Below are positions 1 through 3,744 of a stretch of DNA of 63,710 bases, piece by piece. A program made the translations under genes and the position numbers. Every line of letters begins with the position of its first letter. Positions within the stretch are counted from its first letter, which is position 1. The stretch comes from Calditrichota bacterium (GTDB lineage Bacteria; Zhuqueibacterota; JdFR-76; BMS3Abin05), in NCBI GenBank assembly GCA_013151735.1, contig JAADHR010000199.1, forward strand, positions 146,091 to 209,800, given 5' to 3'. A model generated the notes under the pieces. It worked only from the letters and a program-made list of their open reading frames with translations. It searched no databases and had not been told where the DNA came from.

Positions 1-219
1 GATTCTTACGACACAAAGGTTGGGAAAGGATCGGGTCTGGGTTTGTACAACACGAAGTACATTGTTGAAAAGCACGGGGGCAGCATCTGGGCAGAGTCTG
101 AATTTAAAAAGTGGTTTCGAATAGTTTTTCGGCTGCCATTGTTAAAGAACCATTCCGCGCACGAGGCTCGAAAGAAAAACGTTCTAAATAATCAACACCA
201 GAATCAAACACATGTGTGA
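1..219 (+). CDS. Sensor histidine kinase, C-terminal fragment
   Basis: The reading frame is open from the first base and stops at 217-219, so only the last 72 residues of a longer protein are visible. The fragment has the G2 box of a HATPase_c domain (GKGSGLGLYNTKYIVEKHGG), which binds ATP in two-component sensor kinases, then the usual strand ending in RIVFRLP. A basic, Asn/Gln-rich tail of about 25 residues follows. The response-regulator-like gene starts 19 bases downstream on the same strand, so the two are probably one operon and may be partners. The sensing and dimerisation domains lie outside the window, so no stimulus can be named. Confidence 0.85.
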   Translation, partial: DSYDTKVGKGSGLGLYNTKYIVEKHGGSIWAESEFKKWFRIVFRLPLLKNHSAHEARKKNVLNNQHQNQTHV

Positions 220-238: not shown

Positions 239-1630
239 ATGGCACAGCCGCTAACACAAGGGAAAAGCGTCCCCAAAATTGCCATTATCGATCCTGAAAC
301 CGAAATATTGGAGGTCCTCCGGCAGCTCTTCCAAAACAATGGATTCCAGGTAACGGTGTTTCGTTCGGGGGCGGATGCCCTGACCGAATTTTCTTCCCTT
401 CAGCCGGATGTCGTGTTGCTGGAAATTGCGTTGAACGGAGAGGATGGGCTTAATATTTGCCAGACGATTCATGAAACGTACCCCGAAATACCGATTGTCG
501 TTTTAAGCCGTCTTCGGACACCGGAAATCCGGCTGCAGGCGATCGAGGCCGGCGCGATTGACTACCTTACCAAACCCTATGACCGGGCGTTTCTGCTTCA
601 AAAAATAAAAAACCTGCTTTTTCTTCTGACGCGGAGACCGCTCACAGCCCCTCCGGCTGTCTCTCCCATTGTGACGCTTTTTGAACAGGAACGTCTTTCG
701 ATAATAAAACCCGAACCCAATCCAAACTCGCCCTTCGGGTATGCCTATCCAATCCTGAATCAGGTGGGCATAAACCGCCCCGAAGATCAACAAGAGGCCT
801 TGGAGGCGCTCGTAGCGGAAGGGAAACTGGAGCATATCATTTATGATATGGTTAAACAATGTCCAAAATGCCATTCCATTACCATTCAGTTTCGTGCCGT
901 TTGCCCGGAATGTCAATCGCCAGCCATTAAACCGATTCCCGTACCCGGGCGCTCCGCACAGCAGCCATTTCAGGAAAAAAGATACAACTGTCTGCATTGC
1001 AATGCCGTTTTTTCGACCTCTGTGATTTACGGAAAATGTTTAAACTGCGGAACGACATTTCAGGAGGCAGACGCCAAAACACACTTGATCTATTCGTACA
1101 GGTTACCAGTGAGCAGACCCTGGGGCGACCCACCGGAGAGCGATGCAGAAGCATCCATTCTGGAGCAGGCCCTTCGGGAATCTGAGATTGACTATTTTGC
1201 GCCAGATGCTCTGAAGTTTCTTGTTGCCTACGAAATAAAGCAGGCGCGGGCTTCCGAAAAAAGGACATTTTCTTTGATAAAAATCGATTTTTTGAATCTA
1301 AAACAGCTTCAAGACCATCAGGATCACTTTTCGGTATTGCGGCTGCTCCGAAATCTGTTGTTAATTTTTCGAAAAATCCTTCGTCCGCAGGACCAGGTCA
1401 TTTTGAGTGGAAAAAACAAATTCTATATTCTCATGCCTGAAGCGAGCTATTCAATGGCTACCCTGGTAAAGAAACACGTGCTCTCTTTCATCGACCGCTT
1501 TAAGTTTGACGTGGAGTTTCGAGTGTCGGTGGAGACATTCCCGGACACGTTTCAAACGATTGAAGATATTCTGGATTCCTCAAACCTAAAAACAAAAACG
1601 CCGATCTTACAAAAATCGGCGCTTGTTTAA
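239..1630 (+). CDS. Degenerate response regulator with zinc-finger (TackOD1-like) and degenerate GGDEF domains
   Basis: 463 residues. Residues 12-125 form a CheY-like receiver, but the phosphoacceptor Asp is Glu62 (VVLLE) and the acidic pair is reduced to D18-P-E20. Lys112 in TKPY is kept. Residues 130-290 carry eight cysteines in four CxxC pairs (C208/211, C222/225, C251/254, C267/270) after a GYAYP motif, which resembles the zinc-binding TackOD1 output domain; this assignment is from memory of the family. Residues 320-450 look like a GGDEF fold in which the signature is GKNKF (391-395). RPQD (382-385) sits exactly five residues before it, the position of the c-di-GMP inhibitory site. I infer a phosphorylation-independent protein that may bind c-di-GMP rather than make it. 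It follows the histidine kinase fragment in the same operon. Confidence 0.8.
   Translation: MAQPLTQGKSVPKIAIIDPETEILEVLRQLFQNNGFQVTVFRSGADALTEFSSLQPDVVLLEIALNGEDGLNICQTIHETYPEIPIVVLSRLRTPEIRLQAIEAGAIDYLTKPYDRAFLLQKIKNLLFLLTRRPLTAPPAVSPIVTLFEQERLSIIKPEPNPNSPFGYAYPILNQVGINRPEDQQEALEALVAEGKLEHIIYDMVKQCPKCHSITIQFRAVCPECQSPAIKPIPVPGRSAQQPFQEKRYNCLHCNAVFSTSVIYGKCLNCGTTFQEADAKTHLIYSYRLPVSRPWGDPPESDAEASILEQALRESEIDYFAPDALKFLVAYEIKQARASEKRTFSLIKIDFLNLKQLQDHQDHFSVLRLLRNLLLIFRKILRPQDQVILSGKNKFYILMPEASYSMATLVKKHVLSFIDRFKFDVEFRVSVETFPDTFQTIEDILDSSNLKTKTPILQKSALV
1599..1627 (+). terminator. Possible intrinsic terminator overlapping the end of the response-regulator gene
   Basis: A 7-bp stem CGCCGAT (1599-1605) pairs with ATCGGCG (1615-1621) across a 9-base loop and is followed by CTTGTTT. 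The stem lies inside the last codons, and the next gene is convergent, so a stop here makes sense. The U-tract is weak. Confidence 0.45.
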
Positions 1631-2661: not shown

Positions 2662-3744
2662 TCAGGCTTTTTCAAGCAATTCCTCGTGGGCAATCGTCCG
2701 GTTTTTGCCCAGGCTTTTTGCCTGGTACAAATGCCGATCGGCAATAGCGAGCAGTTTTTCGGTAGAATACCCGTCCATGGGGAAATTTGAAATTCCAATG
2801 GAAATGGTAATGGTTTGTCCGCTGATCTGATAATCCGTCAAATTAAAGTGACCCTGAACAGCCTTTCGCAGTTTTTCTCCCACGCGAATAGCGCTGTTCA
2901 AAGGCGTTTCAGGCAGGAGAATCACAAATTCTTCACCGCCATAGCGGAATAGAATATCCGTTCTCCGGATATTATTCTTTAAAATGGCGGCAATGGCCTG
3001 AAGTACATCATCGCCCTTCAGATGCCCGAACGTATCATTGATCACTTTAAAATCGTCAATATCAATCATGAGTACGGAGAGGTTTCGTTTATAGCGTTCG
3101 GCGCGCTTGATTTCTCTCTGAAAGGTCTTGTTAAAATAGCGCCGGTTAAAAATGCCTGTAAGTTCATCCAGGATGGTAGATTCCCGGGTTCGATGAAATA
3201 ATAAGGCCCGATTTATACAGACAGCCACTTCGTCCGAAATCCGTTTGAGAAAATCGAATTCCGATTTTTTCAGGACGCGTTTTGTATCCCGAAAAAAACT
3301 CAGTACGCCGATAATCTGTTCATCCTCTGAAAAGAGAGGAAATCCCGCAAATAAGAAATTTGACGGGGTATTGGTTTTTATATCGGTTATGGTGAGGGGA
3401 CTGCCTGTTACGGCAACGCGTTCAATTAATTGAGGCTCCGGTTGCAGATGGATTTTTGAGGGAAGTTTTGAAAAGCCGAAAGATTCTTTGAGTCCCAATT
3501 CCTCCTGCAAAGGTGCCAGTAAGAACAAGTGTGCACTGTCCACGGGGAGGGAATCCTTAAAAAGGTGAAAAATGGATCTCAGAATTTGCTTGATTTCGAA
3601 AGTGGTGCTCAAAATATGCGAAATATTATACAGGATGTAGAGTTCTCTGAGCTGCCCCGCAAGCTCCTGATTGACTGATCGGATCTCTTCATATTTTTGT
3701 GACAGTTTTTCCAGCTCGTGTTGTAAATCATTACGTGATGGCAT
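2662..3744 (-). CDS. GAF-GGDEF diguanylate cyclase
   Basis: 360 residues, soluble. Residues 5-35 form a short coiled coil, residues 40-180 a GAF-like sensor domain, and residues 188-352 a GGDEF domain that would make c-di-GMP from two GTP. The active-site motif is intact as GGEEF (269-273). The metal-binding MIDIDDFK segment and the NDTFGH motif are present. RRTD (260-263) five residues upstream of GGEEF is a complete inhibitory I-site, so product feedback is expected. There is no transmembrane segment. Its start overlaps the end of the preceding minus-strand gene by 14 bases, suggesting translational coupling. It faces the degenerate GGDEF protein at 239-1630, which could be a receptor for the same second messenger (inference). 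Confidence 0.9.
   Translation of the reverse strand: MPSRNDLQHELEKLSQKYEEIRSVNQELAGQLRELYILYNISHILSTTFEIKQILRSIFHLFKDSLPVDSAHLFLLAPLQEELGLKESFGFSKLPSKIHLQPEPQLIERVAVTGSPLTITDIKTNTPSNFLFAGFPLFSEDEQIIGVLSFFRDTKRVLKKSEFDFLKRISDEVAVCINRALLFHRTRESTILDELTGIFNRRYFNKTFQREIKRAERYKRNLSVLMIDIDDFKVINDTFGHLKGDDVLQAIAAILKNNIRRTDILFRYGGEEFVILLPETPLNSAIRVGEKLRKAVQGHFNLTDYQISGQTITISIGISNFPMDGYSTEKLLAIADRHLYQAKSLGKNRTIAHEELLEKA

Follow-up and report, generated by a model that had tools for sequence, protein, structure and literature searches.

What would a protein assembled like a response regulator with a diguanylate cyclase domain do once both its phosphorylation site and its catalytic loop are gone? The question is raised by the gene at 239..1630 (+) in a 63,710-nucleotide stretch of a Calditrichota bacterium contig (hereafter the window). 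We lean towards the view that its product regulates type IV pili in a FimX-like, phosphorylation-independent way and derives from a family of inhibitory-site c-di-GMP receptors. The basis of this reading in sequence is the domain make-up, the lost phosphoacceptor, the lost catalytic loop, the family-wide retention of an RxxD motif and the operon context. Gene order is the one line of evidence that points to the pilus machine as the target, and we infer the partner surfaces, the direction of control and any ligand of the protein.

The 463-residue protein, delimited by its open reading frame, Pfam matches and an AlphaFold2 model, comprises a pseudo-receiver domain at residues 14-124 (278..610, +; Pfam Response_reg, 2.6e-24; pLDDT about 95), a shortened TackOD1 domain at residues 140-292 (656..1114, +; PF18551, 77.1 bits against a cut-off of 32, and alignment) and a degenerate GGDEF domain at residues 322-447 (1202..1579, +; aligned to PleD, with PF00990 matching residues 330-425 at 26.8 bits against a cut-off of 23.8). 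All three matches therefore exceed the curated Pfam cut-offs, and the order of receiver (REC), TackOD1 zinc domain and degenerate GGDEF proposed in a preliminary description of the locus holds. The AlphaFold2 model (24 family members) has a mean pLDDT of 85.9, with confident domains whose mutual arrangement is unsure (pTM 0.40). PleD and WspR are the closest solved relatives by both sequence and fold searches, Foldseek with the full-length model returning these again and nothing further, and a whole-protein search of genome contigs for related loci found receiver-domain matches only. The combination of REC, shortened TackOD1 and pseudoGGDEF looks undescribed.

In the receiver, Glu62 (codon 422..424, +) aligns with the phosphoacceptor Asp, as had been noted, and Pro19 takes the place of the acid pair's second member, while Ser90 and Lys112 are retained. 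The acceptor Asp and intact acid pair of a phosphorylated response regulator are thus missing. These two losses occur together in 8/8 Glu-bearing relatives, which supports the earlier idea of a phosphorylation-blind receiver; among the Asp-bearing full-length members compared, four are distinct (the near-identical L020 and L065 counted as one), and three of these retain Asp-Asp. We regard the domain as a pseudo-receiver because the metal site was lost along with the acceptor, and since a metal-binding acid is gone, a neutral scaffold would be as likely here as a phosphomimic in the constantly active-like state that had been suggested as possible.

The middle of the protein had been likened to TackOD1 for its GYAYP motif and its eight cysteines in four pairs, and each of these features was found in place. 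GYAYP begins at residue 167, the cysteines (208, 211, 222, 225, 251, 254, 267 and 270) form four CxxC pairs, and PF18551 passes its curated cut-off. The profile matches in two stretches, profile positions 100-146, corresponding to the middle zinc module, being absent; that module occurs in relatives linked to GT2 glycosyltransferases, which hold a fuller set of cysteines. TackOD1 (PF18551, arCOG06883) is presented, in the portions of the published accounts available, as a zinc-type domain of response regulators with archaeal members also in pilus loci, including those of Thaumarchaeota (PMC5847659, PMC4858521), and one such account calls its function obscure. The archaeal domains are described there with 11 conserved cysteines and with no report of a GGDEF domain, whereas the present protein has eight instead of the eleven (five CxxC plus HxxC) and is fused to a pseudoGGDEF; a TackOD1-GGDEF fusion was not found described in the open-access literature, as far as its accessible text extends. 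We have therefore filed the domain as a shortened variant and no typical member, with zinc binding predicted from the CxxC pairs. The domain modelled by itself is confident (pLDDT 91.4), and Foldseek returned nothing significant for it (best E 0.25, to parkin zinc modules), so no fold-based function was assigned. Elsewhere in the family, a 209-residue TackOD1 protein without a GGDEF-like domain (L088:2304-2933) is nevertheless flanked by HlyD and GT2 genes, and one TackOD1-pseudoGGDEF gene (L066:5938-7398, genome G070) is interrupted in the zinc domain by a TGA that reflects either sequencing error or decay.

At the GGDEF signature position the third domain reads GKNKF (residues 391-395; 1409..1423, +), and five residues ahead of this degenerate motif lies RPQD (residues 382-385; 1382..1393, +), which aligns with R359-x-x-D362 of PleD and supplies the first two inhibitory-site residues, R382 and D385. 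Alignment thus bears out both readings given in the preliminary description. Neither GG[DE]EF nor the catalytic residues of an active cyclase are present, and cyclase activity is not expected from the sequence. Nor does any of the compared TackOD1-pseudoGGDEF family members have an intact GGDEF signature. We scored retention in 34 family domains at columns conserved at 85% or more in 32 canonical cyclases from the phylum's genomes. Catalytic columns were retained at 0-0.35, while the R and the D of RxxD, at 0.88 and 0.94, were the two best kept of about 45 columns conserved in the phylum's active cyclases, a pattern which is not due to chance. RxxD is also found in 31/32 of the canonical cyclases, which makes it ancestral, and for this reason we rejected the argument that RxxD by itself proves binding; its retention is informative only because all catalytic residues have decayed around it. 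At the level of the family, these data argue strongly for a domain that would preserve the inhibitory site and nothing else of the cyclase.

The individual protein is another matter. The third basic residue of the site, Arg390 in PleD, is here His413 (1475..1477, +). That position is Lys in most canonical cyclases, Arg in 17/17 GT2-linked family members, and Arg or Lys in most relatives. A complete R-D-(R/K) triad occurs in all 17 GT2-linked domains, in 8/15 that are pilus- or kinase-linked (a group that includes L029, which has neither neighbour) and in 2/2 others (Fisher p = 0.002, a value that ignores shared ancestry). The four members from the protein's own order, which form one clade on a long branch with 100/99 support, read R-D-H (the present protein), R-D-Q (the same-genus relative G001), Q-D-R and G-D-K; all four retain D385 and two of them R382, the counterparts of RPQD being QPQD in G002 and GVED in G005. 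With His or Gln at the third position in two members and RxxD lost in the other two, none of the four has a complete site (0/4). Conservation of RxxD among orthologues is thus mixed: high in the family as a whole (R 88%, D 94%), it breaks down in the near relatives G002 and G005, which lack the R. Likewise, the claim that the protein binds c-di-GMP through its inhibitory site gains from the family-wide selection for RxxD without a GGDEF motif and is weakened by His413 and by the absence of complete triads in the order. Changing any one of the three corresponding residues to Ala left no measurable binding in the PelD protein of Bacillus cereus (PMC7112168). Given His at the third position and a site in decay within the order, we put c-di-GMP binding by this particular protein at even odds or less.

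The same domains were also sought in other genomes, as had been suggested; the 34 TackOD1-pseudoGGDEF domains compared come from at least two phyla. TackOD1 turns up in 24 of 82 genomes from the phylum, 23 of them scoring above the cut-off. Outside the phylum it exceeds the cut-off in ten genomes, no two of which share a family code; in 9/10 the C-terminus is GGDEF-like and contains RxxD, and 8/10 have an adjoining GT2 glycosyltransferase gene; OEP and HlyD genes often adjoin the TackOD1 gene in these genomes as well. The 17 GT2-linked members adjoin an exopolysaccharide-type operon. Given that other branches carry the same domains beside a glycosyltransferase operon, TackOD1 is not pilus-specific. 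In GT2-linked members L012-L019 and L063 (families f10 and f12) the N-terminal region seems too degenerate for a receiver, with L012 giving no Pfam Response_reg match, and most f10 cases have a divergent MshEN-PilB gene next to the operon.

The preliminary description is silent on the type IV pilus and chemosensory context, on a conserved partner kinase and on the multi-phylum family. The gene at 239..1630 is the last of a co-directional run that lies upstream, outside the window. Its first part encodes, on the same strand, CheW, two MCPs, a CheA-REC hybrid, CheB, CheR, REC, HDOD and a kinase; its second part MshEN-PilB, PilC, two pilins, a PilM-PilN fusion, a small PilP-like protein and a secretin; and its end a PAS-kinase, an intact stand-alone REC (G000:C199:144670-145128), the partner histidine kinase and the gene itself. 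The 3' end of the partner kinase gene (1..219, +; full gene G000:C199:145161-146309) lies 19 bases upstream, and in 14/14 receiver-type loci examined such a kinase, always with an intact H-box, is directly upstream on the same strand with a gap of 2-69 bases. At 13/26 loci, against 0.38 expected, TackOD1 has an MshEN ATPase no more than 13 kb away, the loci sharing ancestry and so being of limited independence. The PilB N-terminus contains RLGEILVEKGLISPEDLEKAFRMQ and, five residues on, RLGKILVDQGFLSEEDLLKALSLK, two near-canonical c-di-GMP (MshEN) motifs that fit the relaxed published pattern (PMC5013675), the second with Lys in place of the last Gln. On the other side of the gene, an intact GGEEF cyclase had been reported nearby, and it is indeed there: a GAF-type diguanylate cyclase (RRTD...GGEEF; 2662..3744, -), one of three intact GGDEF proteins of the genome, whose adjacency recurs in G001 and G005.

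Several further features of the genome were observed. A lipoprotein-like gene (1704-2573, -) lies between the TackOD1 gene and the cyclase, and is beside the TackOD1 gene also in G001 and G002. Upstream, a Pil-Chp-like chemosensory set (G000:C199:120512-134151, locus L069) comprising SpoIIE phosphatase, CheW, two MCPs, CheA-REC, CheB, CheR, REC, HDOD and a GAF-PAS kinase continues directly into the type IV pilus operon. The PAS-kinase (G000:C199:143471-144673, also L043:9472-10674) keeps its His box, but on inspection by eye the G boxes for ATP binding seem degenerate, and it adjoins the intact REC and the intact second kinase. Two more MshEN ATPases are encoded at G000:C112:16125-18742; about 2 kb separate them, and a receiver-domain match falls in between.

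Comparison with characterized proteins gives only partial parallels. FimX of Pseudomonas and Xanthomonas has a receiver without a phosphorylation site and an inactive GGDEF domain, and acts on the PilB motor (PMC8389850, PMC5595344). FimX also carries PAS and EAL domains, the latter binding its c-di-GMP, whereas Pfam detects neither domain in the present protein, which has TackOD1 instead. Receptors of the inhibitory-site type are already known in PopA, SgmT and PelD (PMC3509222). PopA (Caulobacter) and SgmT (Myxococcus) share a degenerate GGDEF whose RxxD inhibitory site serves as c-di-GMP receptor (PMC3509222), but they lack TackOD1 and their site is described as intact, unlike the incomplete site here. 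PelD, with a degenerate GGDEF and RxxD beside a polysaccharide synthase, parallels the GT2-linked branch (PMC7112168), although it is a GAF-GGDEF protein without TackOD1 or a receiver. PleD and WspR, the closest solved relatives of the receiver and GGDEF parts, differ in being active cyclases under phosphorylation control.

One possible reading, to which we give rather less than an even chance, is that the protein does bind c-di-GMP, as the preliminary description proposed, using R382 and D385 while His413 or some other residue stands in for the third Arg; it would then relay the neighbouring cyclase's c-di-GMP to the pilus. R and D are kept here and in the same-genus relative, RxxD is under selection family-wide, and the intact cyclase is adjacent here as in G001 and G005; weighing against binding are His here and Gln in G001 at the third position, the lost R in G002 and G005, and the PelD result, where substituting Ala at the corresponding position eliminated measurable binding (PMC7112168). 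Tentatively, and again short of an even chance, the order may instead have lost c-di-GMP binding, so that the pseudoGGDEF would be a dimerization or docking scaffold and c-di-GMP would reach the pilus via the MshEN domain of PilB. The lack of complete triads on a long, well-supported branch is consistent with such a loss, as is the fit of PilB, even with the Lys that replaces the final Gln of its second motif, to the relaxed MshEN pattern. Set against it are the persistence of D385 in 4/4 and R382 in 2/4 members and a Pfam GGDEF match that remains above threshold.

Zinc ribbons frequently bind nucleic acid, which lends something to a reading of the protein as an ordinary two-component transcription factor whose TackOD1 zinc ribbons and preceding helices contact DNA. 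Archaeal REC-wHTH-TackOD1 proteins do exist, according to the available part of one account (PMC5847659). We nonetheless consider this reading improbable: no DNA-binding family exceeded its Pfam cut-off, no solved fold matched, and the GGDEF-type fusion and an operon place among machine components do not suggest a separate regulator. Even less can be said for an active diguanylate cyclase with an unusual active site. The domain passes the Pfam GGDEF cut-off and some cyclases tolerate variant signatures, as the accessible portion of one report has it (PMC3974145), but the metal-, base- and phosphate-binding residues are lost family-wide. With catalytic columns retained at 0-0.35 only, we rejected this candidate, which has next to no chance of being correct.

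Rather, we hypothesize that the cytoplasmic protein regulates the pilus machine without phosphorylation, in the manner of FimX. Its receiver would serve as a docking and dimerization platform for the intact upstream kinase, its zinc-bearing TackOD1 domain would be the output surface touching the pilus motor or its partners, and its dead GGDEF domain would be an inheritance from a c-di-GMP receptor family that binds via the inhibitory site only. In favour of this pilus reading we count the same-strand chemosensory and pilus genes upstream, the MshEN linkage, the conserved partner kinase, the PilB motifs, the archaeal TackOD1 proteins of pilus loci, the family's retention of RxxD without catalysis, and the FimX precedent. 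Against it, FimX relies for c-di-GMP on an EAL domain that the protein lacks, TackOD1 matches no solved fold and accompanies glycosyltransferase operons in other branches, and the kinase is intact even though the receiver it seems to be paired with has no phosphorylation site; its true target may be the stand-alone REC (G000:C199:144670-145128).

For the family, it is nearly an even call, if slightly under, whether TackOD1-pseudoGGDEF proteins form an undescribed multi-phylum receptor class that would bind c-di-GMP by the inhibitory site only and, through a zinc output domain, gate GT2-OEP-HlyD exopolysaccharide synthase-exporters and type IV pili, the present protein being a pilus-side member whose ligand site is being lost after its receiver lost phosphorylation. 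If so, TackOD1 would gain a testable role through its GGDEF fusion and its recurrent position in exopolysaccharide-type and pilus operons, and a new receptor family would be predicted in phyla whose c-di-GMP effectors are poorly known, and the family itself would present a natural gradation of ligand sites, from full to eroded.
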